DNA of 25,207 nt from the IMG/VR virus record IMGVR_UViG_3300044742_000147, positions 1 through 25,207 of that record; one strand, 5' to 3'. The stretch is from a virus. The notes under the pieces are model-generated. The model made no database searches and was not told the origin of the DNA. It saw only the letters and a program-made list of their open reading frames with translations. Positions 9,960 to 24,727 of this stretch are shown here, piece after piece (position 1 is the first letter of the stretch; each line of letters opens with the position of its first letter). The position numbers were made by a program, and so were the translations under genes.

Positions 9960-11122
9960 AACCACACCTTATTCAATTGTCTGTCACCAAGCGGAGCGGC
10001 GCTTGCGCCTATCTTCCGAATCTCAAATGCATTAGCTGCGTAATCAAACGGATCAGCAATCCCTGTTTTATCACCGAGCGCAAGATACCCGCCAAGCGCA
10101 AGCTTGCGCACCGGATAGACGATGGCGTTCGACCGGCGCTCCTCGCCCGGGATGTTTCTGAACTCCGCACGCAAATCCTCCCATCTGCACAGCACGGTTA
10201 CCGGGGGCGCAATTGTTAGCGCGCCCAAGCGGTCATTGACCAACGGAGCCCAATACGTCGCCGTTTGATACATTCCACGCGTCCACGGCTCTAAACCAAT
10301 GAACGGCGTGGTGAAGATTGGAGGCGTGGTTGAAAGAATTAAGTCGCAATGATCCGGAGACAAAACAAGACTGATTACGGATACCGGAGGCTCGGTCGAA
10401 AGAATCAGATCGCAATGAGCGCCGGAGAACGTCAGGTTCAAATGCGGTGGAGTGGTCGAAAGCGTAAGGTCAGCACCCGGCACGTAGAAGCCAACCAAAC
10501 TTTCATGAGCAGCAGTCGAAAGTGTAAGGTCTACGTGCGCAGGCGGAATGCGATAATCAAGCGACGGCGCGGTCGTCGTCAGATTGACATTAGCGTGACC
10601 GGGCTCGTAGTTGCCGACGAAAGTTGCTGACGGCGATTCTGTCGTTAAATTTAAGTTTGCTTGTCCAGGCTGATAGTCACCAAGTAATGCTGCAGACGGC
10701 GGCTCGGTCGTCAGCAACAGGTCAACATGCCCTATGGAAACGTTAAGATGGAGCGACGGTGCAAAAGTTGAAAGAGTTAAGTCGGCATGTCCTGAATGGA
10801 TATTGATATCAATCGACGGAGTAAATGAAGAAAGGATCAAATCAGCATGCGCGGGAGGAATACTGAAATTAAGCGACGGAGCGGTAGTGGTTAGATTAAG
10901 ATCCGTGTGACCGATGAAATAAACAGCACCTATAAACAGCGGCGTAGTTGAAAGAACAAGTTGTGTTGTATCAGGCGAGAGCGGATAGACTGCCGGAGCA
11001 ATAGTCGAAAGAGTAAGCTGCGCTGCATTAGGCGACAGCGATACCGATACCTCGACGGGATCAGCTTGCTGCCCGAACGCGAACTGGCCGAATGCTCCTA
11101 GCCGTGGGATGCCTGCGGCCAT
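9956..11122 (-). CDS. Second neck-appendage-like repeat protein with stopper domain
   Basis: The 388-residue product starts MAAGIPRLGAFGQFAFG, then has about twelve repeats of 18-22 residues (for example IPPAHADLILSSFTP and FSGAHCDLILSTEPP), related to but more irregular than those of the 1393-residue protein. From about residue 272 it carries the stopper-like domain (PWTRGM, ATYWAP, CRWED, SNAIVYPVRKL, GGYLALG, AFEIRK, DRQLNKVWL). By eye this domain is roughly half identical to that of the giant protein. It lacks Gly-rich and SPRY modules, so it may be the short or inner version of the same appendage. ATG 11122 has AGGA upstream; its TGA overlaps the next ATG. Confidence 0.85.
   Translation of the reverse strand: MAAGIPRLGAFGQFAFGQQADPVEVSVSLSPNAAQLTLSTIAPAVYPLSPDTTQLVLSTTPLFIGAVYFIGHTDLNLTTTAPSLNFSIPPAHADLILSSFTPSIDINIHSGHADLTLSTFAPSLHLNVSIGHVDLLLTTEPPSAALLGDYQPGQANLNLTTESPSATFVGNYEPGHANVNLTTTAPSLDYRIPPAHVDLTLSTAAHESLVGFYVPGADLTLSTTPPHLNLTFSGAHCDLILSTEPPVSVISLVLSPDHCDLILSTTPPIFTTPFIGLEPWTRGMYQTATYWAPLVNDRLGALTIAPPVTVLCRWEDLRAEFRNIPGEERRSNAIVYPVRKLALGGYLALGDKTGIADPFDYAANAFEIRKIGASAAPLGDRQLNKVWL
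10294..11040 (-). repeat. Coding repeat array C: ~12 copies of a 54-66-bp unit
   Basis: Core pattern is x-P-x-H-x-D-L-x-L-S/T-T-x-x-P with unit length 18 to 22 residues. Copies often carry His where the giant protein has Arg or Asn, and Leu-Thr-Thr in place of Leu-Ser-Thr. Same family as arrays A and B but on a separate branch. Confidence 0.85.
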
Positions 11123-11453: not shown

Positions 11454-14369
11454 TTATGTGGTGAAGAACCACGTTGTTGTTGCCAAATCGTAAATCGCAT
11501 CAACATGCTTACCTGCTGCGATTGTCGTCGGCGCATTCTTGAGCGTATCCCCGTCGGGGGAACTGGTAAACGTCAACGATGTGATTGCTTCTGCAAAAAT
11601 GAACTTGGCAAGCTGCCCGTTGTTCAAGCCCTGCATATTTGGAAATAGCTGCGGCATGTTGATCGTCAGCGCCGCAAGCGTGCCGGCCGGGTTGATTACG
11701 TTATGATAGACACCGCTATCAATCTGGATCGTCTGTCCGGTAGTCGGAGTAAAGTACCCACGCCCGGAATCGTTAGCTCCGGATATGCCAATTTGGGTAG
11801 CACCTGTGAAAGTTGAGGCATCAATATAATCATAGACGCCTCCCGTCCTGACCTGAGCAGGCTGGCCAGGAACAGGAGTGCCAGTACCAAGTACGCCCGG
11901 AGCAGTGGAAGTATAGAAATCAAGAAAGTATGCACCAGCGCTTACAGAAATCGAACCGCCGGCATTCGACCAAACCCCGTCATAAAAGACGTCGACGACC
12001 TCAGAGTACCCAGGTGTATTAAGCTCTGCAAATACATTTGGCAGCATCGTGACGCCGGGCACAGCAATAAGCCGACCCGTGAACGCCACGATGAAATGCC
12101 CGTTGAAGATAACAGCCGGACTGTTCCCCATGAACCACATGAACGCTATTACTGTCCTGGCAGGATCAATTCCTGTTTGGATACAGGGGTTGGCAACGTT
12201 TGGTCCCCATGCGCAGTCGATAATTGTGTTGATCCCGGCATTGACTCGCAAGAAGGTATAGTTGGTGTTCGCGTTGAACCTAACCCTGGTCCAAGTGATA
12301 GGATCAGCCCCGACGTTCGCGCGAACGGTGCAGCTAGTATCAAGATTTGCCGGGTCAGCATCAAAGACAACGCTCGGCAGTCCTCCTTCGTCATTCAAGT
12401 TGCCTCGGACAGTCAGCGTGCCATTGCCGACCCACCCATGAACCGTGAACAAGCAGAATTCATCATTCCCGGGATTGATCGTGAAATGAGTGTCGGCAAA
12501 TTGAAGCGTGATGTCGAAGCCAGCGAAATCGTAGATTGACTGAATGGCATCGTACCCGCCTTGTGGCGTGGCGTAAGGCTGTGTTGCAGTACCATTGCCT
12601 GATGTATTGCTTCCAACGCCCGTGAGTGTGAAAGTGAAACCGCTGCCGCCTCCGATGTCTCCTGAAGCCGCCGAAAGTACGTTGCCTATGACGTACCCGG
12701 TCGGCACGGTTGTCAGATCATAAATCTGAACCATCGTCACCGCGCCAGCAGTGACGCGGATATTTGCTCGCGCGCCTGTCCCGGCTCCACCGGTAAAAGC
12801 GACGTCTGTATAAAGACCGTCCGTGTATCCCGAACCACCAGCGATGGTGCCAAACAGATACCCGATATAAAAAGTCGTGTCAGCGGTGATCAGCGTTCGA
12901 GATGCCGTCACACGACCGGAGCAATGCCAAGTGCTGGTAGATTGTCGATAAGTAGCCTCGAAGAAACCGCCGCCAGAAATCCCGGCTGGCGGATTGACGA
13001 TGAATTGCCCTGCATTCGGCAGAACGGACAATGCAGCAATCATCCGCGACGTTTTGACGTGGATGATCTGTCCGTCAAATGGAGCAGGCGGCATCGTGAT
13101 AGTGCCGCTCGCCAACATCGTTGCAGGATTGAGCACGACGTGCCAATCCAAATCGTTAAGAGTGAGAGAAAAGCCTGTGATCGGCGTCTGATAGTTAACA
13201 TTGCTATCAAGGACTCGATTTAAGCCATGCGTTGCGCCATTGTTCACATTGTCGTCAAACAGAGCACCGCCGCCAAAAAATAAAGGATCATTCGCGCCCG
13301 GCAAGGTCGTGCCGATATACCGTGCAACACCATCAGGCCCGAGCGTGATGCCTGCGGACGCCATCGGGAATCCAGCGCCACTGAAAGTACAAAATAAGAA
13401 ACTGAGTTGTCCTCCATATGCGATGAAGAACCAATCATCTGAAGCGTTGACGCCTGCTCCTATTTCAATCGCACAACTGATGAACTCAACGAGTGAGCCC
13501 GCACCTTGAATATTAAACCCGCCGGGGCCGAAGCAAGTGAATGTACCAAAGAATTTGACAGTCTGTCCTGAAACGTAGTTTGAGCAATCAACCAGCGCGC
13601 TCCCGCCGCTTATATCGCAATTGTTAATACCAAGTTGGCCGACGAAATTGCACGACACCGCCGCCCAACCCGAGGCATCGGGAATGAAAAGCTGGATATT
13701 GTTGACCCCGAGATTGCTGATGGTGCAGGCATCAACTTCAAGGGCCGCGCCTGAGAGCGCGAGATTTTCAAACCTAACCGCAGTCCTATCGCCGGCATTG
13801 CCGTTGAAAGTGAGAAAGCCGCCACCTGTCCATTCTTCCTGTATTTCAAGGACAGAGGAGCCGGTGTTGAGCGTGTAAGTTCCATCACCGCATTGAACCG
13901 CTACATTGAAGCCACCAAAGTCATAGTTGTTTGCAAGGGTGTCGTAGGCGTGTTGTGGCGATGCCCACGGCAAGCCGGCGCTCCCATCGCCCGTCACATC
14001 ACTGCCGGTAGTGGCGACGTAAAAGGTTGTATTCTCCGTCAACTTGTGACGGGGAGCATGCGCGACAGGGCCAGAGTAAATGCGCTCTGTGCCGTCAAGA
14101 TTGAGCGGCGCGTTGGCGATCTCTGTTGATGAAAGAACCGTGCGGCCGGTCAAGCGTGGCACGGTATTGTCGAGGACCGCGTAGCCTATTTCATGGCGCA
14201 GCGCGTCTTGCGGCTCAATGATGTACCAATAGGTGCGGCCGGTTATGCCACCAGCATCAGCAAACGTCTTCCAGCCAGGAACGACAGCACCAAGATTGAT
14301 GGTGCTGCCTGTCCCTGTAGACCCTACGATAACATTCGCAAGGTTGAGGAAGTCGGGTGAAATCGCCAT
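11454..14369 (-). CDS. Duplicated beta-helix tailspike/fibre protein
   Basis: The 971-residue product has an N-terminal phage fibre head domain (about 1-105, with GSTINLGAVVPGWKTFAD and RTVLSSTEIANA). Then come two copies of a beta-helix unit: the first starts near residue 115 (TTFYVATTGSDVTGDGSAG, QHAYDTL, YDFGGFNVAV), the second near 585 (TSGNGTATQPYATPQGGYDA, YDFAGFDITL). Each ends in a similar beta domain (VLNPATMLASGTITMP near 412; VINPAGTLAALTINMP near 890). A GSGYTDG-type virion domain (about 512-585) separates them. This is the fold of depolymerase or receptor-binding spikes that act on surface polysaccharide; no catalytic residues can be assigned by eye. The gene lies in the neck region and not at the tail-tip end. 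The start lies six bases after the upstream stop. Confidence 0.8.
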   Translation of the reverse strand: MAISPDFLNLANVIVGSTGTGSTINLGAVVPGWKTFADAGGITGRTYWYIIEPQDALRHEIGYAVLDNTVPRLTGRTVLSSTEIANAPLNLDGTERIYSGPVAHAPRHKLTENTTFYVATTGSDVTGDGSAGLPWASPQHAYDTLANNYDFGGFNVAVQCGDGTYTLNTGSSVLEIQEEWTGGGFLTFNGNAGDRTAVRFENLALSGAALEVDACTISNLGVNNIQLFIPDASGWAAVSCNFVGQLGINNCDISGGSALVDCSNYVSGQTVKFFGTFTCFGPGGFNIQGAGSLVEFISCAIEIGAGVNASDDWFFIAYGGQLSFLFCTFSGAGFPMASAGITLGPDGVARYIGTTLPGANDPLFFGGGALFDDNVNNGATHGLNRVLDSNVNYQTPITGFSLTLNDLDWHVVLNPATMLASGTITMPPAPFDGQIIHVKTSRMIAALSVLPNAGQFIVNPPAGISGGGFFEATYRQSTSTWHCSGRVTASRTLITADTTFYIGYLFGTIAGGSGYTDGLYTDVAFTGGAGTGARANIRVTAGAVTMVQIYDLTTVPTGYVIGNVLSAASGDIGGGSGFTFTLTGVGSNTSGNGTATQPYATPQGGYDAIQSIYDFAGFDITLQFADTHFTINPGNDEFCLFTVHGWVGNGTLTVRGNLNDEGGLPSVVFDADPANLDTSCTVRANVGADPITWTRVRFNANTNYTFLRVNAGINTIIDCAWGPNVANPCIQTGIDPARTVIAFMWFMGNSPAVIFNGHFIVAFTGRLIAVPGVTMLPNVFAELNTPGYSEVVDVFYDGVWSNAGGSISVSAGAYFLDFYTSTAPGVLGTGTPVPGQPAQVRTGGVYDYIDASTFTGATQIGISGANDSGRGYFTPTTGQTIQIDSGVYHNVINPAGTLAALTINMPQLFPNMQGLNNGQLAKFIFAEAITSLTFTSSPDGDTLKNAPTTIAAGKHVDAIYDLATTTWFFTT

Positions 14370-14375
14370 CGCATC

Positions 14376-14822
14376 TTAATTCAATTCGAAGATGCCGTTC
14401 GCACTCGGCGTGATGGTCAAGCGGTTGCCGGCAGTGATCGAGAACTGCGCGGTGGAGAGGGTCGAACGCACAAGAATCTTCCTCGCGCCCGCCGAAGCAC
14501 CTGTAACCCAAATCACAGCGAACTTGACGTTCGCGATGGTGCCGGCGTTGGCCGACCAGAACGACGCCGAGCTTGAGAAGCGATACTCCGACGCGGATGC
14601 ACCGGCCGTCCATGTCACGCCAGTGATTGCCTTGCCAGAGGACGAATAGCCGTTCGCCTCCGTCAATTCTCCCGTCACCGAACCGATTGTCGAAAGCGTC
14701 ACGGTCGCGGCATTTGACGCGGACGTGTAAAGACTCATTCGATACGAAGATGACGAAAGAAGCGACCCGTTGAAAAGGTTCTTCTTCGCTTTGTTGTAGA
14801 ACACCCATGCGCCAGCGGCCAT
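14376..14822 (-). CDS. Conserved phage virion protein of unknown role
   Basis: The 148-residue product MAAGAWVFYNKAKKNLFNG... belongs to a type I recognise from many proteobacterial phages: W-x-x-Y/F-N-x-A-K near the start, SYRMSLYTSASNAATVTLS, a VTGELTEANGYSSSGK strand region, and the C-terminal signature RLTITPSANGIFELN. It is beta-rich and typically sits near capsid or tail fibre genes; its precise function is not known to me. ATG 14822 was chosen because AGGAGG precedes it at good spacing; a longer frame to 14849 lacks this. The previous gene ends two bases upstream. Confidence 0.75.
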   Translation of the reverse strand: MAAGAWVFYNKAKKNLFNGSLLSSSSYRMSLYTSASNAATVTLSTIGSVTGELTEANGYSSSGKAITGVTWTAGASASEYRFSSSASFWSANAGTIANVKFAVIWVTGASAGARKILVRSTLSTAQFSITAGNRLTITPSANGIFELN

Positions 14823-14823
14823 G

Positions 14824-15678
14824 TTAGCCTCCTGTTTCGAGTGATGCACCTGTCCGCATCGCGGTCGCGATCAAGCCTGGACCGTGAACGTTGAGGCGGA
14901 ATAGATTCCCTCGCTCCTTGATCAAGGATTGAAAATCCTCGAATTGCTTCATATGCCACGGAGCGCATTCAAACATTTGCGCAAAGCCGCTGCCGTCGTT
15001 TGATCGAAGCCACGTACGCACACGACCATCCTTGTCATTTGCACCCTGCACATAGGCATGGTGCTTGCCATCAATCCAGCAAGAGTCGAGACCGAATATG
15101 TGGAAGCTCACAAAGCCGAGCATCCGCATGACTGATATGACCCGCACGCCGATCGTCGTGCCAATGGTGACAGGATTTAGCCGGCCAAAATAATATTCCT
15201 TGAGCAATTCAAGCTCGGCTTCGCTTCCGGTACCAAGCGCATGCCAGATCAGGATATCGCGCCCGCGGCATGTCTCAAACGTCTTCGGATGACATTGCGA
15301 TGCGAGCAAATAACGACAACCTTCGATAGGACGCTTGACCATATCCGCCATGAATTCGCGCGCGTCGATCATTACAAAAGCGGATGGTTTGAGGTTCCGC
15401 GACAAGCACCATTCATAGCCGCCGTTGACCGCGACTATTTTTCCGCCTGCCCAATACTCCGCGACAAGTTCCTGTTCCGTCATATCAAGAGACGGACCGC
15501 CACAAACAATCAACAAGACCTCCGAATTAGGTTCGTGCTTTTGAACCTGCGGAAGACCGCGCCGAATGTTGGTTGCGATTTGATCAAGCAAAACTTCGTC
15601 GGTCGTATTGCACCCGCAGTCAGGAGCAAACGAAACCGGATAAACCTTGCTTTCGTCAAATGCGACTTGCAGGTTCAT
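14824..15678 (-). CDS. DUF115 / Maf- and MptE-like protein
   Basis: The 284-residue product matches the DUF115 (PF01973) type: LLIVCGGPSLD near residues 55-65, IVAVNGGYEWCLSRNLKPSAFVMIDAR around 80-106, a central TGSEAELELL and IGTTIGVRVISVMRMLGF, then FHIFGLDSC. DUF115 proteins include Maf, which transfers nonulosonic acids to flagellin Ser/Thr, and the archaeal pterin kinase MptE. Phage members are common but poorly characterised. In this operon with three glycosyltransferases a sugar-transfer role is more plausible than pterin metabolism (inference). ATG 15678 overlaps the stop of the methyltransferase (ATGA); an upstream in-frame start ten codons earlier is less likely. Confidence 0.75.
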   Translation of the reverse strand: MNLQVAFDESKVYPVSFAPDCGCNTTDEVLLDQIATNIRRGLPQVQKHEPNSEVLLIVCGGPSLDMTEQELVAEYWAGGKIVAVNGGYEWCLSRNLKPSAFVMIDAREFMADMVKRPIEGCRYLLASQCHPKTFETCRGRDILIWHALGTGSEAELELLKEYYFGRLNPVTIGTTIGVRVISVMRMLGFVSFHIFGLDSCWIDGKHHAYVQGANDKDGRVRTWLRSNDGSGFAQMFECAPWHMKQFEDFQSLIKERGNLFRLNVHGPGLIATAMRTGASLETGG

Positions 15679-16262
15679 GCTTGCACCACAAACATACCGA
15701 CGCCGCAAAGGTCGCGCGCATCAATTACCTTGCCGACCGCCGACAAGTGTTCAAGCCACCAAGAGTAGGGCATGACGGTCAAGTGCAAGTCCTTTCCGAT
15801 CGCTTGCCCGAAGCCGTCCGGAAAGAATGCTATTTGGAACCATACGACCCGACACGCGCGAAGCAATCGGAGAACGACCGCCATCGTATACTCAGGCGGG
15901 ATGTGTTCCATCACGTCGCAGCAAAAGCCCCATTGCCAATGAACCGGCGATGGCTTTGGGATGTGCTGCCACAGTGGTTGTTCGATGAAGCGATTTCTTG
16001 GAACGTCTTCCTTCAGAGCGAAGCCGGTGATATCGAGCCAATGGACATCAAGCCCGCGACTTGCAAATTCCAACCCCGCCACCCCCGCTCCGCAACCTGC
16101 ATCAAGCAGCATCGTCTCGCGCTTCGGCTTTATGACTGACATGAAGCGATCGACGTTCTCAAGCCCGGGCGATTTCTTGTGGTAATCTTCAACGTCCCAC
16201 ATTTCCTCATATTTGAGGCGTTCGGCCGCCGCGGAATCAGGGATATGAAGTTGCGGCATCAT
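15675..16262 (-). CDS. SAM-dependent methyltransferase
   Basis: The 195-residue product has a class I methyltransferase core: motif I LLDAGCGAG at 52-60, followed by VAGLEFASRGLDVHWLDIT with the acidic residue ending strand beta-2 (DIT). CCDVMEHIPPE near 113-123 fits the D-x-x-E-H-x-P region of small methyltransferases that modify sugars or small molecules. The length is that of a bare methyltransferase domain with no DNA-recognition region, so DNA methylation is unlikely. It is ATGA-coupled to genes on both sides, including the Maf-like gene, which suggests a joint role in glycan modification (inference). Confidence 0.8.
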   Translation of the reverse strand: MMPQLHIPDSAAAERLKYEEMWDVEDYHKKSPGLENVDRFMSVIKPKRETMLLDAGCGAGVAGLEFASRGLDVHWLDITGFALKEDVPRNRFIEQPLWQHIPKPSPVHWQWGFCCDVMEHIPPEYTMAVVLRLLRACRVVWFQIAFFPDGFGQAIGKDLHLTVMPYSWWLEHLSAVGKVIDARDLCGVGMFVVQA

Positions 16263-16552
16263 TGCACGCTGCTCCGCAACTTTTGTTCCAGTGCAGTAAT
16301 TATTTCCGCGAGCTTGTTGATCGTCGCCTGCAATATTCCAGCCTCGTCGTTTAGTTTCTCACGCTGGTCTTCCGGAGTCTTTTCGATATGTGCGCGCATA
16401 CGCGCCAAAGCAGAAATCATTTCGTCGCGGTCGCGACGCATTATTTCGATTTCAGCAATTTTCGGCTTCAACGCGTCAGCGCCGAAATTGCTGGTCGGCC
16501 GCGCTTTCCCCACAGCAACCGCTGGCGGATGACTTTTGAAACTACCTTTCAT
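16259..16552 (-). CDS. Small coiled-coil protein
   Basis: The 97-residue product MKGSFKSHPPAVAVGKARP... has a basic, flexible first third and a helical remainder (IAEIEIMRRDRDEMISALARMRAHIEK and ILQATINKLAEIITALEQKL) with coiled-coil spacing. No family is recognised. ATG 16552 is chosen; an in-frame GTG at 16609 would add 19 residues but overlap a neighbouring small ORF further. Its TGA overlaps the methyltransferase ATG (ATGA). It may be a structural or assembly helper. Confidence 0.55.
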   Translation of the reverse strand: MKGSFKSHPPAVAVGKARPTSNFGADALKPKIAEIEIMRRDRDEMISALARMRAHIEKTPEDQREKLNDEAGILQATINKLAEIITALEQKLRSSVQ

Positions 16553-16649
16553 GCGATATCTCGCTGAGAGCCCGCTGATTGAACGTGCATTTGTCGACCA
16601 TAAGCCCACCGCTAATGATCAACGAAAGCGTAACAAGAAGATAAGCCAT
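16542..16649 (-). CDS. Candidate 35-residue membrane peptide
   Basis: A short frame starts at ATG 16649-16647 with CAGGAGC about eight bases upstream and ends with TAG at 16544-16542. The product MAYLLVTLSLIISGGLMVDK plus a 15-residue polar tail has one hydrophobic helix at its N-terminus, like a signal anchor. The gene fits between the DUF4054 stop (17 bases upstream) and the next gene, whose ATG it overlaps by 11 bases. The clear ribosome site and hydrophobic segment support it; the size makes chance possible. Confidence 0.45.
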   Translation of the reverse strand: MAYLLVTLSLIISGGLMVDKCTFNQRALSEISHER

Positions 16650-16665
16650 GATGTTGCTCCTGTTA

Positions 16666-17061
16666 TTAAGTCCACGCGACCGCCGGAAAATTGCGCCGCC
16701 GTAAGGCAAGAAACCTGAGACCGTACGGTGTCGATGCAAATTCCCGCTCGTCTAACGAAACAGAGCTTGATGCGCCGCGGTCGGAATATTCGATTGACGC
16801 GTCACCAAGCTTTTCGCCTTTGATCGGTCCACTCACGCTCCCGAACGATGCCGCGCCGGGGGTGGAAAAAATAGCGCCCTCGTATGCCATCATATGCGCG
16901 GTCAAGGTTTGGATCGCGATCGTGTAGTCGCCTTCCAACCAAGATTCATCGACCCACATTTTCGCCTCGGCAATAAACAGATCGACTCGCGGGTCAGCCA
17001 CGCTATCGAACTCAGGATAGCGCGTCTTAACGTCCGTTGCGGTTGGATCGACGTACGCCAT
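16666..17061 (-). CDS. Head-tail adaptor (DUF4054-like)
   Basis: The 131-residue product MAYVDPTATDVKTRYPEFDSV has the DUF4054 signature: F/Y-x-x-R-Y-P-E-F, then VDLFIAEAKMWVDESW and TLTAHMMAYEGA (A-H-x-x helix). The family is related to adaptor proteins that bind under the portal and start the neck. ATG 17061 overlaps the upstream TGA by one base (TGATG); a TTG one codon earlier is not needed. The position after capsid genes is as expected, but the stopper that should follow is displaced by more than 11 kb. Confidence 0.85.
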   Translation of the reverse strand: MAYVDPTATDVKTRYPEFDSVADPRVDLFIAEAKMWVDESWLEGDYTIAIQTLTAHMMAYEGAIFSTPGAASFGSVSGPIKGEKLGDASIEYSDRGASSSVSLDEREFASTPYGLRFLALRRRNFPAVAWT

Positions 17062-17522
17062 CAATCATTCGCTGCTTTGCGCAACGCCTCAATCACGTCA
17101 GGACGCTTCGCTTGTGCGCCCGGCCACGCCTTCCCCAAAACGCGACGGGCCGACTGCCGAAGCTGGAACCACGGCATCCCCGCTTCAGCCTGGATCAGCA
17201 AAGCGCCCGGTCCTGCATCGACCGGATATCGCCTTCGGGAGCCCGTAGGAAGGGCAAGGGTGCGTTTTTCTTGCTCCGGGGGTGCTTCCTCAAGATCCAC
17301 GTCTGACCGCACCCGCTCGTCGCGCTGGTCTTGCGCGCCCGGGGAAAGTGCCCGGATACACCTGACGCCGACACCAGAGCGGTTCATTTCTTCGAGAATT
17401 GTGATGGTTGCTTGATCGAGGTCCGCCGTAACACTCTTGCCGCCTTCGATCGCGACAACCCGCCGATTGGTATCGTACACGACCCGGAGAGCATTTTCTC
17501 TGTTGGTCAATGTGCACAGCAT
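17061..17522 (-). CDS. Unknown head-region protein
   Basis: I do not recognise this 153-residue protein with certainty. It begins MLCTLTNRENALRVVYDTNRR, has a small beta-rich start (RVVAIEGGKSVTADLDQATI), a charged central linker (QDQRDERVRSDVDLEEAPPEQEK as a whole) and a C-terminal region with Trp/Gln and Ala-rich helices (PWFQLRQSARRVLGKAW). Rhizobial phages often have a short protein of this N-terminal type between capsid and adaptor; the extra C-terminal half is unusual. ATG 17522 follows GGGAGG at nine bases. Function unknown; a head or neck role is inferred from position. Confidence 0.6.
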   Translation of the reverse strand: MLCTLTNRENALRVVYDTNRRVVAIEGGKSVTADLDQATITILEEMNRSGVGVRCIRALSPGAQDQRDERVRSDVDLEEAPPEQEKRTLALPTGSRRRYPVDAGPGALLIQAEAGMPWFQLRQSARRVLGKAWPGAQAKRPDVIEALRKAAND

Positions 17523-17536
17523 TCTTCAGCCTCCCG

Positions 17537-17662
17537 CTACTCGTTGTCCAAATCCCAAAGTGCCCACGCCATCTCTCGTGCAAGCCAGAGCAACGTCATT
17601 CCGAAAAACATGGTGACGGAAGCAAGTGAGACGATTGCGACAGTACACCCGGTAGAGCACAT
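17537..17662 (-). CDS. Candidate 41-residue membrane peptide
   Basis: A frame from ATG 17662-17660 to TAG 17539-17537 encodes 41 residues with a hydrophobic helix (TVAIVSLASVTMFFGMTLLW) followed by a Trp-rich acidic tail (LAREMAWALWDLDNE). It lies in the only sizeable gap of the capsid region, just after the terminator hairpin and 14 bases before the next gene. Its ribosome site is weak (GACGGGG). It may be a small membrane protein or a chance ORF. Confidence 0.35.
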   Translation of the reverse strand: MCSTGCTVAIVSLASVTMFFGMTLLWLAREMAWALWDLDNE

Positions 17663-17678
17663 CCGGAAGCCCCGTCAG

Positions 17679-17708
17679 AAAACGGGGAGGGCGGCCCACG
17701 CCCTCCCC
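17679..17708 (-). terminator. Rho-independent terminator after the capsid gene
   Basis: On the minus strand GGGGAGGGCG and CGCCCTCCCC form a perfect 10-bp GC-rich stem with a five-base loop, followed by GTTTTC. It lies 21 bases past the major capsid stop. Termination or attenuation here would make capsid mRNA more abundant than downstream neck and tail mRNA. Confidence 0.75.
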
Positions 17709-17729
17709 CACCACGCCGCCATAAGAACC

Positions 17730-18704
17730 TTAAGAAGCGTAGTCCGAAATACCATCCACATAGCGCACCGCACCCGGGCGACGGATTTCGAGACCACCAA
17801 GCCGGAAGATTCCTGGAATGTCGTAAGTGATCGGCCCTGTCTGCCATACCGGCATGAACCGATGCGGCATGGGGATGTGCATCTTGAGCACTTGCGGATC
17901 ACGGCGATAAACAACCATGCGTCCCTTGTCGCCGCCGACGCCGGCATTCTCAAGACCGCGCACGCCGACGATCTTCAACGGCTGTCCGGTGATCTGGCTA
18001 TAGATGTTGTACCGCCTTAGCCATTCCAGAACGTTGGTATCCGTTCCGCCGGTCGTGCTCATGCGCGTGCCGGCGAGCCTGGACATCTCCGCAACCGGGA
18101 GCAAAACCGTGTCCGCCATTTCGACCGTCAGCGACGCCGTGTAGACGCCGGATAGCGCATCGTTCACGTCCGCCGCGATTTGGTCGCCCGTCTTGTTCGC
18201 CCACGCCGCTGAGCCGCCGGTGCCCGTCGCCGCCGCCGCCGCGATGGTCACGATCGCATCGGCATTGAGAAGGCCCGTAAAGCCTTTGGTCGTGTCGCCG
18301 CGGAGTGCTTTGTCATCCACGAATTCCTCATACGCGCGTCGCGCTGCTTCCGCGCGCTCGGTCGTAAGGTTCATTCCGGGGATCATCATCGCCTGCCCAA
18401 GTTCTTCCAGGGTGTAGCGATAGCCGATGCCGGCCATCTCGATACCCTGCTCGAACTTCGAGCGTTGCACATCGGCAAGCGGAAGATCGGTCGCGGAATG
18501 GTGAAACCAATTCGCTTGACCCGCCTTGTCGAGCGAATAGTACGTGACGCTTTTTGCCCATTCCGGAGCCGAACTATCGACGGGGATCAGCGCCGGATAT
18601 TGCACATCCGGATACTGAATGCGGTAGACCTCGGCTTCGATGTACGAAACCTGAGAAACGAGGAAGCCCATCGCTTGCTGAGCATCCTTCACAAAATTGC
18701 GCAT
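17730..18704 (-). CDS. Major capsid protein (DUF2184-like, HK97 fold)
   Basis: The 324-residue product matches DUF2184-type capsid proteins: RIQYPDVQYPALIPVDSSAP near the N-terminus, SVTYYSLDKAGQANW, LPLADVQRSKFEQGIEMAGIGYRYT, an E-x-A-R-R-A-Y-E-E-F-V-D helix (E-loop/spine region), and C-terminal VYRRDPQVLKMHIPMPH and FRLGGLEIRRPGAVRYVDG. I chose ATG 18704-18702 because AAGGAG stands before it; a frame extending to 18926 is in antisense-like, Arg-rich sequence overlapping the decoration gene. No N-terminal scaffold domain is present, in keeping with a separate nested scaffold upstream. A terminator hairpin follows. Confidence 0.92.
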   Translation of the reverse strand: MRNFVKDAQQAMGFLVSQVSYIEAEVYRIQYPDVQYPALIPVDSSAPEWAKSVTYYSLDKAGQANWFHHSATDLPLADVQRSKFEQGIEMAGIGYRYTLEELGQAMMIPGMNLTTERAEAARRAYEEFVDDKALRGDTTKGFTGLLNADAIVTIAAAAATGTGGSAAWANKTGDQIAADVNDALSGVYTASLTVEMADTVLLPVAEMSRLAGTRMSTTGGTDTNVLEWLRRYNIYSQITGQPLKIVGVRGLENAGVGGDKGRMVVYRRDPQVLKMHIPMPHRFMPVWQTGPITYDIPGIFRLGGLEIRRPGAVRYVDGISDYAS

Positions 18705-18751
18705 TTGGTTTTCTCCTTCAAGAGGAAAGCGCAGGAAGCGCGGTTTCAGGA

Positions 18752-19225
18752 TTACGTGCGTTGCAATCCGCTGATGCGAACGATTGCGAGACCAGCGCCG
18801 GTGACAGAAGTCATCCATCGCGCGCCGGGGATAGGTCCGCTGCCGCCCGAATTGCCAAGGATGCCGCTCGTTGCGTCGTAATGCACAACCTCGCCAGCGG
18901 CGACAGTCGCGTCCGTCGTCACCCAAATGTCGCCCATCGTGAGGATGCCGGCATTTGCATACTGCGGATACTCGTCGAGGTAGTCGGAGTCCGCCGTGAC
19001 CGGAGCCAGCGTCACATCACGCACTGAGATGCCGGCGAATGCGGTCAGAGCCCCACCAAGCCCGACTCCCTTGTCGTTCGCGCCTTGCTTGACGGCGCGA
19101 CCAAAGGGAAGACCGGATGAAGGCTCAACGGTGCGCGTATCGATTTGATACGGATTCTCGTTCGCGACCATGCCGGCATAAGCCTTCACAATCCGTTCGA
19201 GGTAGGTTGATTGAACAACAGCCAT
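18752..19225 (-). CDS. Capsid cement/decoration protein
   Basis: The 157-residue product begins MAVVQSTYLERIVKAYAGMVANE, then TRTVEPSSGLPFGRAVKQGA and GISVRDVTL, the pattern of gp24-like structural cement proteins that bind the outside of HK97-fold capsids. The C-terminal half is beta-rich (GDIWVTTDATVAAGEVVHYD; AGLAIVRISG). It lies between the protease-scaffold and the capsid gene, the usual place for decoration proteins. AAGGATC precedes ATG 19225. It is expected to bind after expansion and to be present in high copy number. Confidence 0.85.
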   Translation of the reverse strand: MAVVQSTYLERIVKAYAGMVANENPYQIDTRTVEPSSGLPFGRAVKQGANDKGVGLGGALTAFAGISVRDVTLAPVTADSDYLDEYPQYANAGILTMGDIWVTTDATVAAGEVVHYDATSGILGNSGGSGPIPGARWMTSVTGAGLAIVRISGLQRT

Positions 19226-19257
19226 AGCGGTGATCCTTCTCTTGTCTCAAAAGTATT

Positions 19258-19271
19258 TCAGAGCGCTCTGA
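19258..19271. repeat. 14-bp perfect palindrome
   Basis: TCAGAGCGCTCTGA is a perfect inverted repeat in the 56-base gap between the scaffold/protease stop and the decoration gene. In RNA it would form only a short loop-less hairpin, so a protein-binding site is as likely as a structural role. No promoter was recognised beside it. Confidence 0.5.
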
Positions 19272-19281
19272 TCGAAGATGA

Positions 19282-19899
19282 TCAATTCGTCTGTGCGGGC
19301 TGCGGATTCTTCCAAGCGGATTGAAGCCGCTTGTTGTATTCGTCGTAGGCTTTGTCGGCCGCACTGATGCCGTGCTGTGGTTGACCCGACAGCGCATCCG
19401 CAAGGCGATCGACACCGTTGCCTTGACCCGCATCATCGACCTTGACGCCAGCGGCGAGTGTATTGAACGAAGCGGTGATCGCGTCTTCGGTCCATCCCTT
19501 CGCCGTGTCGCCAAGCTTCACATCGACGACTTGCTTGCGCATGTCGGCAACGGTCTTGCCATCGACGACCAGCTTGTCACCAATCAGCGCGCGTGCCTTG
19601 CCAGCGATTTCGGCGCGTTCCTTGACCAACGTGTCAAGAGCAGCCGGCGTGATCTTCGCGTCCTCAAGCTGCTTCTTGAGCGTCGCGATTTCGGCATCCT
19701 TGGTGGCGATCGCCTTCGCGCTTTCGTCGATCGCATCCTTGCTCTTTTTGGAGGTTTCTTCTTCCTCCTTGAGCTTGGCCGACAACGTGTCGATTTGCTT
19801 TTGCAGCGCCAACAGATGCCGCTCGACAACCTTCGAAGCCATGTCGGTCATCGCGACAGCAAGCCCGTCAATGGTCACGCTCTTAAGTTCTTCAGTCAT
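19282..19899 (-). CDS. Nested scaffold protein from an internal start
   Basis: ATG 19899-19897 lies in frame inside the protease gene and is preceded by AAGGAG (19914-19909) with nine bases spacing. The product would be 205 residues: MTEELKSVTIDGLAVAMTDM, a long coiled coil and a C-terminal acidic-to-polar tail. This is the same arrangement as lambda C/Nu3, where the scaffold is made from an in-frame start within the protease gene. The protease half then acts as minor component and the short form as bulk scaffold. The ribosome site is as strong as those of real gene starts here. Confidence 0.7.
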   Translation of the reverse strand: MTEELKSVTIDGLAVAMTDMASKVVERHLLALQKQIDTLSAKLKEEEETSKKSKDAIDESAKAIATKDAEIATLKKQLEDAKITPAALDTLVKERAEIAGKARALIGDKLVVDGKTVADMRKQVVDVKLGDTAKGWTEDAITASFNTLAAGVKVDDAGQGNGVDRLADALSGQPQHGISAADKAYDEYNKRLQSAWKNPQPAQTN

Positions 19900-20760
19900 G
19901 GTGTCTTTCTCCTTCCGATTCCGTCTTTCGATTTCGTCCGCAAGACGGCGGACCACATCACCCGAAAATGTTTCCTCTGTCTGATCCCCAATCGCAAGCG
20001 CCGACCCGCCGCGCGCCGCGCGCACAAGCGCGAGATGGTTGGCGCGAATATCGGTCTGGAAAGCGTCGTAAGCCTCGCCGGTTGGAGTCCGACCGGACTC
20101 CCATTTCAAGTCCATCGTGTAACCGAGAGACAATTGGCGCTTACCGTTTTGCACGTCCCTAACCGCGTCGTGATCCATGAACATTGTCGGGACGCGGATA
20201 TAGTCCCCGTCACGCAACACTTCGCTGCCAAGTATCCCGACCGAGAACTTTTTCCAATTCTTCGAATTCACAAGCACGGGCGGGTGATCATTCGTAATCG
20301 GCCTGCCGGCATACGAGTGCAAGGAATCCTTCGCGAAGACGACCGCTTCCGGCCGATACACGCGAACGTCGTCCATCTCCGGACGACCCAATTCCTTGCC
20401 CTTGTAGATTTGAATGCCGGTTCGAGCGATCCGCGGCATGGCAACCAAATAGCCGGCATCGGTCGTGCGGATATCGGAACCAGCGTCAAAAGCAATCGTT
20501 TCGCGCACGTCGAACGAATCAACTACCTCGGAATCACTTGTTCCGAACTCGTCCTTTGTCCACTTGCCAGAGCCGGATTCGGGAGGACTCCAACCATCGC
20601 TCGAAACTTCCGTCCACGCACGCTTGAAGCACGTCGAATCAGCCATATCCGGCTTCGCCGCTACAATCGCGTTGTAAGCCTTGCGGAAGATCGTCTGCGC
20701 TTCTTCGGGGAGCGACGACCGGACTGATTTCGGAAGATCTGAATTCTTGGCGTACGGCAT
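19282..20760 (-). CDS. ChaB domain-DUF2213 prohead protease-scaffold fusion
   Basis: The 492-residue product begins MPYAKNSDLPKSVRSSLPEE, a ChaB domain (1-~60). A DUF2213-type prohead protease follows (about 80-260) with GRPITNDHPP (candidate catalytic His159), KRQLSLGYTMDL (candidate Ser211) and ANHLALVRAARGG. The order His-Ser resembles the S78/assemblin proteases; catalytic assignments are by motif only. From about residue 288 a Lys/Glu/Ala-rich coiled coil (LQKQIDTLSAKLKEEEETSK) looks like a scaffold domain, ending QPAQTN. The protease would cleave scaffold and itself during prohead maturation. ATG 20760 overlaps the BA14K stop (TGATG) and gives the conserved MPY start; GTGs upstream are rejected. 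An internal ribosome site before residue 288 is listed separately. Confidence 0.87.
   Translation of the reverse strand: MPYAKNSDLPKSVRSSLPEEAQTIFRKAYNAIVAAKPDMADSTCFKRAWTEVSSDGWSPPESGSGKWTKDEFGTSDSEVVDSFDVRETIAFDAGSDIRTTDAGYLVAMPRIARTGIQIYKGKELGRPEMDDVRVYRPEAVVFAKDSLHSYAGRPITNDHPPVLVNSKNWKKFSVGILGSEVLRDGDYIRVPTMFMDHDAVRDVQNGKRQLSLGYTMDLKWESGRTPTGEAYDAFQTDIRANHLALVRAARGGSALAIGDQTEETFSGDVVRRLADEIERRNRKEKDTMTEELKSVTIDGLAVAMTDMASKVVERHLLALQKQIDTLSAKLKEEEETSKKSKDAIDESAKAIATKDAEIATLKKQLEDAKITPAALDTLVKERAEIAGKARALIGDKLVVDGKTVADMRKQVVDVKLGDTAKGWTEDAITASFNTLAAGVKVDDAGQGNGVDRLADALSGQPQHGISAADKAYDEYNKRLQSAWKNPQPAQTN
19909..19914 (-). promoter_or_regulatory. Internal ribosome binding site for the nested scaffold
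   Basis: The minus strand reads AAGGAG nine bases before an in-frame ATG, inside the junction between the protease and coiled-coil domains (residues RRNRKEKDT just before). Coincidence of a strong site with a domain border supports function. Confidence 0.65.
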
Positions 20761-21125
20761 CACGGACACCTGTGCGCAAATCCGTCGTAACCCATGTAGC
20801 TCTGGGTCTGCGGATTGTAAGAGCGGAAGCGCTGAATGCAGTACGCAATCTGCGGATCAACGTACTGTTGTTGCGGAACATATTGCGGCTGGTACATAAC
20901 CGGCGGCTGATAATAAACCGGAGGGGGTGGAGGTCGGTAGTAAACCGGAGGCGGCCCAATCATTCCGCCTATAACTCCACCGGCAATCCCACCAACGATC
21001 CCACCGAATATCGCCGCGCCCGGATCAAAGCCACGGTTGCGATGATGTCGCCATTGAGCATCGGCCGGCGTCGCAATTAGCAGAAGGAGAAAAACGACTA
21101 AGCCCGCCAGTGCTTTCTTATCCAA
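20760..21125 (-). CDS. BA14K-like secreted Pro/Tyr-rich protein
   Basis: The product is about 121 residues with a signal peptide (KKALAGLVVFLLLLIATPADA, cleavage likely after ADA). A basic stretch and a Gly-rich segment (IFGGIVGGIAGGVIGGMIG) precede a Pro/Tyr-rich region (PPPVYYRPPPPPVYYQPP). The C-terminus YCIQRFRSYNPQTQSYMGYD...RCP matches the BA14K family (PF07886), immunoreactive, lectin-like surface proteins of Brucella and rhizobia. The likely start is TTG 21125, which places the signal peptide at the N-terminus; the frame stays open upstream to 21293, so this is not certain. It overlaps the glycosyltransferase gene by 28 bases. It is a host-type surface protein in a head operon, so a cargo (moron) gene is likely. 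Confidence 0.75.
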   Translation of the reverse strand: MDKKALAGLVVFLLLLIATPADAQWRHHRNRGFDPGAAIFGGIVGGIAGGVIGGMIGPPPVYYRPPPPPVYYQPPVMYQPQYVPQQQYVDPQIAYCIQRFRSYNPQTQSYMGYDGFAHRCP

Positions 21126-21811
21126 GGCGTTTCCGCCTGAGAACGAGCATCCCAAGGCTTGTGCTTGCCATTGAAAGAAACGATGCGGGCATTGTCCGGC
21201 AACGGTCGCTGTCGAAGATCGCGCGAGTACGAATACACGCCGTCTGCGATATCCCAACCGGGGGCAGTACCGTTCAGCTTCAACGACAACCATGCCTGAT
21301 CAGAGCCGAAGTACCTTGCCTCGCGTGTCTGCTGTGGAGATTTTTCGGGATCGAATTCATCCCAAAGCCACCGCATACACCCCGCTTTGAACATAAACAA
21401 CGAGCCGTTGTATACTACTGGACGGAAGCTGCCAACCCCCCTCCACCCTACAAATTCATCATCCCGCTCGAACAAAGGTTTGAGGTCGCCAACAAGAACT
21501 ACGTCGAGGTCCATCGACACTACGCGTTCGCCCTTTGCAATTCCGATGTCATCGGTCGCCGCAACGAACAATTTAAGCCGGCGATAACACGATGGGAGCA
21601 TTGCGCCGGAAGGATTACGAAGCCCATTGCAGTCGGTCCAAAGCGGGAAGGTTTCGCACTCCACACCGTCCGTATTGTCGGTAATACAAATCAGGCGATG
21701 CTTGCCGGCATAATGCCGATCGAGCATCGCCTTAAACGTGTTGACGTGCTTGTGGGTGAATATCGTTCGATATTCAGGTGATGCCCATTTCCACACGACA
21801 AACGTGATCAC
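21098..21811 (-). CDS. Glycosyltransferase, DxD type
   Basis: The 237-residue product starts MITFVVWKW and carries VSMDLDVVLVGDL (Asp101-Leu-Asp103, a metal-binding DxD motif) and RPVVYNGSLFMFKAG, with FGSDQAWLS later: the pattern of GT8-like phage or capsule glycosyltransferases. It should transfer a sugar from a nucleotide donor in the cytoplasm. The start is GTG 21811-21809, overlapping the upstream TGA (GTGA); AAGG lies upstream. It is one of three glycosyltransferases here and is similar in style to the one at 23052-23768, so the two may be paralogues. Confidence 0.82.
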   Translation of the reverse strand: MITFVVWKWASPEYRTIFTHKHVNTFKAMLDRHYAGKHRLICITDNTDGVECETFPLWTDCNGLRNPSGAMLPSCYRRLKLFVAATDDIGIAKGERVVSMDLDVVLVGDLKPLFERDDEFVGWRGVGSFRPVVYNGSLFMFKAGCMRWLWDEFDPEKSPQQTREARYFGSDQAWLSLKLNGTAPGWDIADGVYSYSRDLRQRPLPDNARIVSFNGKHKPWDARSQAETPWIRKHWRA

Positions 21812-21990
21812 ACGCGCGTCACCTTGTAGCCGCGCCCGCGCAAGTGATCGAGGATTTCCTGCGCACCTTCCGGAGTGATCTTCATCACCCTGTGGTCACC
21901 GAGAATCTTTCCGGTGAAAGTCACATTCAAGCCGGTCAGATCATTAACGACTGCCCTCGAAAGCTTCTGTGTCTCGTCTTCGCCGTTCAT
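21808..21990 (-). CDS. Unknown 60-residue protein
   Basis: The product MNGEDETQKLSRAVVNDLTG... is small, charged and predicted to have a helix-strand-helix pattern (LNVTFTGKILGDHRVMKI, then TPEGAQEILDHLRGRGYK). ATG 21990 follows AAAGGAGAA at good spacing, and its stop is coupled to the glycosyltransferase start. It is a real gene by these signs; no family is recognised. Confidence 0.65.
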   Translation of the reverse strand: MNGEDETQKLSRAVVNDLTGLNVTFTGKILGDHRVMKITPEGAQEILDHLRGRGYKVTRV

Positions 21991-22024
21991 TGGGTTCTCC
22001 TTTGTTAAAGCTCGATATCATCAT

Positions 22025-22780
22025 TCACAGCTTAATCTCATGATGCGGGAAGCTCAAGACCTTCGGCTTCCAATTTGGCCCACGCGCGCGGATCATTTGC
22101 TTTACGCCAGCATCTTCCGGCTGCTTGCGCTTGTACCGCGTCGTCGAGGAATCTTCGTAGTGCTCATACCGATGCAATTCGTCGGTCATTATCCGGATCG
22201 GCGCGGTCGCGGCGCATCGCCTCCGATATTCTCCATCCGTCCCGTAATGCCCGGACAATGCTTCGTCGTACCCGCCGACCTTCCAGAACATCTTGCGCGT
22301 CATGAACCACGAATTCGGGTGCGGATGAATTGGCCCTCCATCGCGCTCCCGTCGTGAGAAACGATAGATAATATTCGGATCGTGCTCTCCGTGGATCAGC
22401 GCCTTCGCCGTATCAAATGGGATGACGTGATCCATGTCGGTCAGGACGCACCAGCAATCCGGGGCGTTCTTCATTCCGATATTGCGCGCCGCAAGCCAGT
22501 TCCATCGCACGTCAACGTCGATCCGAAAGAGCCGCATCGCGATCGGGGGCGGGTGCCCGCGCAAAACATCTCCCGCTGGATATGTTGGCGAACCGTCATC
22601 AACGATGATAGCGCCCAAGCGCAATCTCACGCCCACGTTGAATGCCCACCAACGCCGCATTTGATATTCAAAGAACTGTGGATTGTCGTAGTACGGCATA
22701 ACGATGCAGACGAAATCTTTTCGCATGTCGCCGCGCTTGACCTCGACGATTGGCGCGTCGTCACACCCGGGAGCGCCCAT
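22025..22780 (-). CDS. Glycosyltransferase family 2-like
   Basis: The 251-residue product has a GT-A fold pattern: FVCIVMPYYDNPQFFEYQ near the start, LGAIIVDDGS (Asp61-Asp62) and VLTDMDHVI (Asp115-x-Asp117, the DxD metal site). NPHPNSW-like IHPHPNSWFMTRKMFWKVGGYDEALSGHYGTDGEY (taken in pieces) matches the conserved GGYDE...G-x-D/E region of GT2 enzymes. The acceptor cannot be told. ATG 22780 follows GGAG, three bases after the upstream stop. The C-terminus is basic and Trp/Pro-containing. Confidence 0.85.
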   Translation of the reverse strand: MGAPGCDDAPIVEVKRGDMRKDFVCIVMPYYDNPQFFEYQMRRWWAFNVGVRLRLGAIIVDDGSPTYPAGDVLRGHPPPIAMRLFRIDVDVRWNWLAARNIGMKNAPDCWCVLTDMDHVIPFDTAKALIHGEHDPNIIYRFSRRERDGGPIHPHPNSWFMTRKMFWKVGGYDEALSGHYGTDGEYRRRCAATAPIRIMTDELHRYEHYEDSSTTRYKRKQPEDAGVKQMIRARGPNWKPKVLSFPHHEIKL

Positions 22781-22783
22781 TGT

Positions 22784-23101
22784 TCAACTCCCGACTTGCT
22801 GTTGAGTACCGTCCCAAACGAATTGATCTAACGGAAAGTGTTCGCGGCAATGGACGCAAAATGTACCACTGTAGAACGTCGGATTACATGCGTACGTTTC
22901 AGCAATCGATTGGCCCATGCTCGTAACCTTTCCGCACGTTTTGTGCAGATAGGTTTTGCGGACCGGTCGGACGTATCCCTTCGCGCGTTCCTCTGCGGAC
23001 AAGACCACGTAACCCTTTTGCATTCCCGTCGCTGGATCAATCTCCCGATGGTCATGCGTGACCGGAGAACCGTCCGTCAGCGTCGTTTTTGGATCGCTCA
23101 T
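22784..23101 (-). CDS. Conserved phage protein with Cys pairs
   Basis: The 105-residue product MSDPKTTLTDGSPVTHDHRE... has a conserved look seen in rhizobial phages: IDPATGMQKGYVVLSAEERAKG (in pieces), YVRPVRKTYLHKTCG, then YACNPTFYSGTFCVHCREHFP and VWDGTQ. Cys-x2-Cys plus other Cys and His residues suggest a zinc-ribbon-like site. ATG 23101 is chosen because AGAGGAAAGC precedes it; a longer frame overlaps the upstream gene further. It overlaps the upstream glycosyltransferase by 50 bases. Function unknown. Confidence 0.7.
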   Translation of the reverse strand: MSDPKTTLTDGSPVTHDHREIDPATGMQKGYVVLSAEERAKGYVRPVRKTYLHKTCGKVTSMGQSIAETYACNPTFYSGTFCVHCREHFPLDQFVWDGTQQQVGS

Positions 23102-23768
23102 GCTTTCCTCTTGCACCCCACGCTTCATCAAACCACGGCCACTGCATCGCAGCGATATGATTCTTCGGTCGCTTCATCAAAACAACTTTCGTCCCAAGCG
23201 GCCATTTCGGCGGATTGTGTATTTCCGAAATACGCGGAAACCATGCAAGCGGCATCGTCAGCTGATTCGGCAATCGTTCGCCAATCCAATCCTGATCACC
23301 CCAAAGCCGGCGCGTCACGGATGCGTTGAATTCGGTATATAGCTCAGGATGCTTCCCAGCTTCAAAACGCATCACGCTTGAATTGTACCGCTTTACGACG
23401 CGCTTCCCGCCGCGTCCCTCAAACGCACCGGCATGCGGTATCAAAGCAAGATCGGTCTTGAGCCCCGCAATCAATTCAAGCGAATTGACAATCAGCACGT
23501 CGAGGTCGAAATACAAAACCGGACCGTATAGCCAATGGTGCGGCGAAAAAAGCTCGATCTTTGACCACCATCCGGCATTTCCGTTTTGCGGCTTCGGTAT
23601 TTCAATCACATCGCAATTTTGCTCCAACAAAAGCGACGGCCTGTCTGTCAAACAAACAAACCGGTGCGGGACGCTCAAGTGCTTGCGCACCATCGCCCGC
23701 AAGCGCCACACGTAATCCGGTGTGAACGGAACATTCGCTTCGACCCAAACGCAAGCAACGGTAAGCAT
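23052..23768 (-). CDS. Glycosyltransferase, DxD type
   Basis: The 238-residue product starts MLTVACVWVEANVPFTPDYV, has FVCLTDRPS and VLYFDLDVLIVNSL (Asp88-Leu-Asp90, metal-binding DxD) and a later VKRYNSSVMRFEAG, WGDQDWIGE, then ALPRI-like AWFPRISEIHN. This is the GT8-like layout shared with the 237-residue enzyme at 21098-21811 (CxTD...DLDV...YNSS/YNGS...DQDW/DQAW). ATG 23768 follows AAGGCGGGG. The C-terminus is Lys/Arg-rich. Substrate unknown. Confidence 0.82.
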   Translation of the reverse strand: MLTVACVWVEANVPFTPDYVWRLRAMVRKHLSVPHRFVCLTDRPSLLLEQNCDVIEIPKPQNGNAGWWSKIELFSPHHWLYGPVLYFDLDVLIVNSLELIAGLKTDLALIPHAGAFEGRGGKRVVKRYNSSVMRFEAGKHPELYTEFNASVTRRLWGDQDWIGERLPNQLTMPLAWFPRISEIHNPPKWPLGTKVVLMKRPKNHIAAMQWPWFDEAWGARGKHERSKNDADGRFSGHA

Positions 23769-23810
23769 GTCTAAAACCCCGCCTTTTTGTCGGTCAATAC
23801 AATTCCGGCA

Positions 23811-24005
23811 TCAGCCTTTTCCTTTACCTGACCCAACGTCAACTGTAGCACTGATTTTAGCGAACATGGTGATCTTACATTCTGTCGGACCATCGCCAGC
23901 TTTGAATTCGATGCTCTTGACGCGATTAAGTTTCTTGCCGTCCAAATAAACAAGACCTTTACCGGTTTCGTCTACATCGATACTGATTTTACTGAATTCT
24001 GTCAT
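23811..24005 (-). CDS. Unknown 64-residue beta-rich protein
   Basis: The product MTEFSKISIDVDETGKGLVY... is short, with strands rich in Ile/Val/Lys and a C-terminal GSGKGKG tail. ATG 24005 has GGGGG upstream; an alternative GTG at 24011 would overlap the upstream stop (GTGA). No family is recognised. The neat operon spacing supports a real gene. Confidence 0.55.
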   Translation of the reverse strand: MTEFSKISIDVDETGKGLVYLDGKKLNRVKSIEFKAGDGPTECKITMFAKISATVDVGSGKGKG

Positions 24006-24007
24006 CT

Positions 24008-24727
24008 TCACCCCCTCATCCAGTGATTGGCGTGCAAGCTCTCGATATCTTCCTCGCTGTCTTCGCAGGAAACCACATCGCCAACGCCGCGGCGGATCAC
24101 GCCGGCATCGCGTAAGGCTTTCGACTTGTGGTCCGGTCCGCGTATCTTCAGATCGCTCGACAAGATTGGTTTCAAATCCTTGTGGTATCGCCCTTGCTGC
24201 GGAACCATGAAGCGCTGATTGTTCGTCTTGCGCAGCACGCCGCGGACCAAATGACCGCGCGTCGTTTCCGCGCGCTCGAACGCTACAACCTCATAGCAAT
24301 TCGCCCACGCCACCGCGGCAATCAAGTTTGGCTGGATCAAATAGAAGCAATGCCCCTCATATCCGGCGCATGGCCGATCGAACACGATATAACCACCGAC
24401 CTTCGTCAGCATGTGCATGGTGCGCCATACCTGATGTTGATCAAAGACATGCTCTCCCGTACCGAAGTCAGTCACAAGATCAAACTCACAGCGCCAAAAC
24501 ATGCCCCACTTTTCGATCGGAATATTGAGGTCTTGGGTGCACGTGCCGCGACCGTTACCGTCGATCGACTCATAACGATTGCATCCGAGTTCTTCGTAAA
24601 ACTTACGCGCCAATTGATGCTTACCCCCACACGTCACCCATTGGTCGCCCAATTCCGCGACCGCAAAGCATCCTTTCGGCAATTTGAGGTCGCGAATATA
24701 CTGCAACGGCTCAGTCAGAATTCCCAT
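24008..24727 (-). CDS. Class I methyltransferase-like protein
   Basis: The 239-residue product shows a methyltransferase-like fold: GCFAVAELGDQWVTCGGK as a motif I-like strand-loop, YESIDGNGRGT as an acidic strand end, FDLVTDFGTGEHVFDQHQ around 82-98 (motif IV region) and LTKVGGYIVFDRP (strand beta-5). Such proteins with D-F-G-T-x-E-H occur in sugar and natural-product loci. Motif I is atypical, so catalysis is not certain. It lies between small unknown genes; its ATG overlaps the preceding gene by 17 bases. Confidence 0.65.
   Translation of the reverse strand: MGILTEPLQYIRDLKLPKGCFAVAELGDQWVTCGGKHQLARKFYEELGCNRYESIDGNGRGTCTQDLNIPIEKWGMFWRCEFDLVTDFGTGEHVFDQHQVWRTMHMLTKVGGYIVFDRPCAGYEGHCFYLIQPNLIAAVAWANCYEVVAFERAETTRGHLVRGVLRKTNNQRFMVPQQGRYHKDLKPILSSDLKIRGPDHKSKALRDAGVIRRGVGDVVSCEDSEEDIESLHANHWMRG

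Follow-up and report, generated by a model that had tools for sequence, protein, structure and literature searches.

Two putative glycan-modification modules among the virion genes of an uncultured tailed phage

A tailed-phage fragment of 25.2 kb from a viral contig collection (25,207 nucleotides, analysed whole and called the window here) carries two sets of putative glycan-modifying genes, module A (MT1, GTa, GT2 and GTb) and module B (MT2, DUF115 and p157). We give a probability of about 60% to the reading that the phage uses both modules to modify its own virion proteins, in the cytoplasm and late in infection. Our observations concern gene content, the modelled fold of DUF115, the coupling and linkage of genes, their natural fusions and their recurrence beside unrelated capsids; enzyme activity, sugar donor, acceptor and timing are inferred.

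Gene content of the window

All recognisable genes of the window lie on the minus strand (Table 1). The head genes are typical, with a DUF2213 protease, a cement protein, a DUF2184-type major capsid protein and a DUF4054 adaptor, and past them the order runs through fibre-like, repeat, neck and tail genes. A first-pass annotation of this DNA had described three DxD glycosyltransferases, a DUF115 protein and two methyltransferases, interleaved with head genes as a glycan-modification set inside a virion operon. All of these enzymes were found where it had placed them, on the minus strand and interspersed with the genes for protease (DUF2213), cement (PF22758), capsid (PF09950) and DUF4054 proteins, and gene content and neighbours bore out the presence of such a set within a virion operon.

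Table 1 Features of the window, in order along the minus strand
Feature	Coordinates	Strand	Basis or remark
MT1, putative class-I SAM methyltransferase	24008..24727	-	weak Pfam methyltransferase matches, best E 0.0044
GTa, DLD glycosyltransferase	23052..23768	-	PHROG glycosyltransferase phrog_1962, 1e-11
115-aa Cys-containing protein between GTa and GT2	22784..23131	-	ORF
GT2, family-2 glycosyltransferase, DMD motif	22025..22780	-	PF00535 2e-5
GTb, DLD glycosyltransferase (GT8-like)	21098..21811	-	phrog_1962 7e-9; GT8 5e-5
Head maturation protease/scaffold (ChaB + DUF2213)	19282..20769	-	PF09979 6e-47; phrog_530 2e-91
Capsid cement protein	18752..19225	-	PF22758 4e-34
Major capsid protein	17730..18719	-	PF09950 6e-85
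DUF4054 head-tail adaptor-type protein	16666..17064	-	PF13262 1e-17
MT2, class-I SAM methyltransferase	15675..16262	-	phage methyltransferase phrog_24759 3e-7
DUF115, stand-alone Maf-like transferase	14824..15678	-	PF01973 2e-14, above cut-off
p157, small beta-rich tail-type protein	14376..14822	-	phrog_644 4e-13
971-aa fibre-like protein	11454..14369	-	weak tail-fibre match phrog_5342
rep1, ~9 x 20-aa L[ST][ST]x[AEP]P repeats + C-terminal domain	9956..11122	-	
rep2, Gly-rich N-terminus, ~30 x 22-aa repeats, C-terminal domain of rep1	5380..9561	-	
Stand-alone copy of the rep C-terminal domain	5039..5392	-	adjoins connector/tail-terminator-type gene; phrog_797

Scans with the capsid protein, DUF115, GTb and p157 as queries returned more than 200 loci (given L numbers below), and each gene group recurs in the same order in independent contigs, beyond what chance would give. 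The enzymes had been taken for a single cassette, a view that we rejected in favour of two independent modules: GTb homologues fell into 69 distinct clusters, and DUF115 was missing from the fetched flanks of every one of them. Both modules were found together only in the window, L089 and L110/L112. Among the capsid relatives, MT2-DUF115-p157 follows the capsid gene in L004-L006, with no overlap with the loci that hold GT2-GTb. What had looked like one cassette is thus two modules brought together in certain lineages.

Two further proteins lie within or beside module A. The 115-aa protein between GTa and GT2 gave no confident family in the Pfam/PHROG comparison. Between GTb and the protease is a BA14K-domain protein (20760-21293) with a signal or membrane-like segment, its start uncertain because its open frame overlaps GTb; the domain hints at an alphaproteobacterial host.

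Module B and its candidate acceptors

The AlphaFold2 (AF2) model of the DUF115 protein (pLDDT 83.6) found its best fold match in Maf (5MU5; Z 20.9 over 223 residues, 3.0 Å), followed by archaeal HPPK/MptE (8SD5; Z 14.5) and then the GT42 enzyme CstII (Z 10.2). This fold, together with a match to PF01973 above the cut-off, upholds the initial description of the protein as Maf-like. The likeness is to the central PF01973 domain of Maf, which has the same fold: flagellin glycosyltransferase Maf has three domains, whereas the window protein is a single PF01973 domain of 285-294 aa, and the alignment covers only residues 244-503 of 632 in 5MU5. The setting differs too: DUF115 neighbours a gene of phage tail type in place of flagellin, and a methyltransferase or sulfotransferase accompanies it as a partner gene or a fused domain.

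The three genes of module B are tightly packed. MT2 carries the motif DAGCGAG, and its stop overlaps the DUF115 start as ATGA; the DUF115 frame opens at 15708, with the probable start at the ATG at 15678, and the p157 ATG at 14822 stands behind AGGAGG just past the DUF115 stop. This arrangement recurs, p157 being next to DUF115 homologues in every locus with room. Among 18 DUF115 clusters, p157 comes next whenever the contig extends far enough, and L118 and L119 are the only ones in which MT2 does not stand in front. Seen from p157, DUF115 lies upstream in 34 of 36 eligible clusters and MT2 in 33 of 36, and in 79 capsid-relative loci DUF115 and p157 were either both present (3) or both absent (76). 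DUF115, MT2 and p157 diverge in a correlated manner (r 0.58-0.77, a level reached by 0 of 2000 permutations), a co-divergence that can reflect shared descent of linked genes. A methyltransferase domain is fused to DUF115 in three loci. In L247 (6452-7996) a sulfotransferase (PF13469) and DUF115 share one open frame, and a second, shorter DUF115-like gene lies upstream of the MT2-DUF115 pair in L096 (7246-7866) and L229 (4220-4948).

Module B was found with three unrelated capsid types, PF09950 in the window, PF05065 in L096 and L121, and PF13252 with a P22-type portal in L085, which makes the capsid an unlikely partner for it. Among 84,980 species genomes, scanned twice, no relative of DUF115 or p157 was confirmed, and tblastn with the DUF115 proteins of the window and L279 found none in 50,697 phage records. 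When DUF115, GTb, p157 and the neck-type domain (below) were compared by sequence with solved structures, no convincing relative emerged.

We propose that DUF115 would transfer a sugar, by analogy with Maf a nonulosonic acid, to Ser/Thr residues of a protein from its own cassette, and that MT2 would methylate the product. The acceptor would most likely be p157, possibly also the repeat protein. Because DUF115 stands upstream of p157 in 34 of those 36 clusters and the Ser/Thr of the repeats have been lost in two lineages (below), p157 appears to be the more regular partner of DUF115 and the better candidate acceptor, as judged from the sequences. Several Ser/Thr of p157, which was modelled with a pLDDT of 84, are kept in at least 95% of 38 sequences, and could have a structural role. 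One distant homologue of p157, Bruin gp29, closes a run of minor tail genes, and p157 homologues also occur in mycobacteriophages with no glycosyltransferase annotated near them.

The first-pass annotation had looked to the repeats instead, suggesting that fibres or capsid might be glycosylated on the regularly spaced Ser/Thr of LST-x-AP units. Regular repeats do exist (about 30 units of period 22 in rep2 and 9 units in rep1), but outside the 14824-24727 stretch to which the cassette had been assigned. The strict LST-x-AP motif occurs 16 times in rep2 and 2 times in rep1, within a unit of about 22 aa with the core L-x-L-[x1]-[x2]-x-A-P. Positions x1/x2 are Ser/Thr in 97%/90% of the rep2 units of the window and in 100%/91% of those in L089, but in only 22%/9% in L097 and 15%/4% in L121, where Ala/Gly/Glu replace them, yet MT2 and DUF115 are kept. 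The overall Ser+Thr content of the repeat region drops from 23% to 14% and 10% in L097 and L121. The LST Ser/Thr were therefore rejected as a family-wide conserved acceptor.

The repeats are nonetheless associated with module B. Of the 16 DUF115 clusters with room, 14 have a repeat protein no more than 5.3 kb beyond MT2-DUF115-p157, and only module B, of the two modules, tracks it. No sequon is known for Maf enzymes, which prefer Ser/Thr close to apolar or low-complexity stretches (PMC11339370), so the repeats could serve as sequon-free acceptors. Over their last 110 residues rep1 and rep2 share 43-48% identity with the stand-alone protein at 5039-5392. That protein lies just before the connector/tail-terminator-type gene and is presumed to belong to the neck; through the domain that they share with it, rep1 and rep2 are probably virion proteins. 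Against these points, several DUF115-p157 loci (L117, L119, L264, L267, L271 and L277) hold no recognised repeat protein, and the LST motif appears to alternate in the manner of a structural beta repeat. That the LST-x-AP Ser/Thr are glycosylated by DUF115, alone or together with the DxD enzymes, to form a mucin-like stalk is thus a possible but unlikely and not favoured mechanism. Glycosylation of the virion remains the best reading and is likely, with p157 the likelier target of module B.

With copies of the neck-type domain at 9956-10285, 5380-5709 and 5039-5392, the repeat arms seem to be fused to a protein of neck type, an arrangement seen only in the window, L082/L002 and L089. Two of eight members of the domain family weakly match a head-tail connector family. 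Head-closure homology was considered and dropped, as profile comparison with S20 Hc1 and the Firecracker stopper gave no support; what remains is position and the weak connector match. Another long repeat protein, with LVTL-type units, occupies the corresponding region in L012 (7769-11698), L013 and L020 (9209-13030), where DUF115 is absent.

Module A and the Corndog-type locus

Module A stands directly before the head protease in the window. MT1 is the weakest assignment among the named enzymes, being only weakly methyltransferase-like with its best match (E 0.0044) below Pfam cut-offs, and its homologues lie upstream of GTa-GT2-GTb in L089, L122, L124, L128, L157 and L185. GTb falls just under the family cut-off for GT8 (5e-5), and its resemblance to glycogenin in the sequence search of solved structures was weak. 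The GT2-GTb pair adjoins head genes in tens of viral contigs, and sits directly before the protease among the capsid relatives L011, L014, L018 and L025. Of 62 clusters with room, 31 have GT2 immediately upstream of GTb. Among 63 genes that come next after GTb, 15 were head maturation proteases, 11 head-tail adaptors and 7 Hc1 (head closure), counts that may overlap, with members possibly counted under more than one family.

The closest known counterparts of module A are the Corndog-type (Cluster O) locus and Che8 gp108-110. The Corndog-type layout is portal-MT-GT-GT-GT-protease-capsid, and the window likewise has a methyltransferase and several glycosyltransferases beside its protease and capsid genes. 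In Cluster O phages, an O-methyltransferase and three transferases lie between portal and protease, and capsid modification was proposed from the locus (PMC4351075). A further study reports that virions of Che8, Corndog and Myrna are glycosylated (PMC12363180). The glycosyltransferases Che8 gp110 and Corndog-type gp36 of Firecracker (GT25-type) are reported to be essential. The GT2 profile matched Che8 gp109 (92% probability) and Firecracker gp35 (86%), the latter annotated as a polypeptide GalNAc-transferase. Probabilities were below 1% for the GTb and GT2 profiles against Che8 gp110 and for the GTb profile against Firecracker gp36. GTa and GTb are phrog_1962/GT8-like, whereas the Corndog-type enzymes reported essential are GT25-type, and the capsid family of the window phage also differs from the Corndog type. 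Because these comparisons detected no homology between GTb and the enzymes reported essential, our reading of module A is based on gene order and the GT2 family. As the Corndog-type locus has the same order, we take a head protein as the candidate acceptor, on which MT1, GTa, GT2 and GTb may build a short, possibly methylated glycan.

Tetraselmis viridis virus S20 also has an island among its head genes, with homologues of GTb (41% identity) and GT2 (44%) and a methyltransferase; unlike that of the window, it is placed between early head genes and head closure. The window DUF115 had no match in S20, and we found no published function for the S20 island.

Remaining alternatives and implications

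Related islands (L110, L089 and L003) have variable neighbours: a GT9 heptosyltransferase, FkbM methyltransferases, a hexapeptide transferase and an epimerase. These four families also act in surface-glycan pathways, and the enzymes might accordingly alter the host surface polysaccharide, for example in superinfection exclusion, as the annotation had offered in the alternative. We consider this improbable, and less likely than virion modification, as the module genes sit in a late virion gene setting, with head and tail genes for neighbours inside the operon of many contigs, and module B brings its own tail-type protein. A membrane-like segment was present in 1 of 35 enzymes of five compared islands and in none of the window's enzymes, and in the islands examined we saw neither a membrane glycosyltransferase nor a flippase or lipid-carrier enzyme. 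That DUF115 is an MptE-like nucleotide enzyme, and MT2 a small-molecule or nucleic-acid methyltransferase, would suit the Pfam name of PF01973 (MptE-like) and the archaeal HPPK as second-best fold match, DUF115 sharing the fold of MptE as well as that of Maf. We consider it improbable, as Maf and GT42 sialyltransferases match DUF115 over most of the domain and as fusion to a sulfotransferase and close coupling with a tail-type protein are easier to reconcile with modification of glycans or proteins.

Modification of the phage's own virion proteins is thus the reading that we retain. More tentatively, MT2-DUF115-p157, often with the 22-aa repeat protein, might constitute an undescribed, self-contained glycosylation cassette, in which a minimal Maf-type enzyme, a dedicated methyltransferase and a tail-type acceptor have moved as a unit between phages with unrelated capsids. 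Virion glycosylation in phages has been reported in a few mycobacteriophages. The present findings extend the gene-order signature to uncultured phages and add a second type of enzyme, Maf-like and with its own candidate acceptor. They also reduce the acceptor question to three small genes, which makes it testable by co-expression, and might supply a compact enzyme-acceptor pair of Maf type with which to glycosylate proteins.
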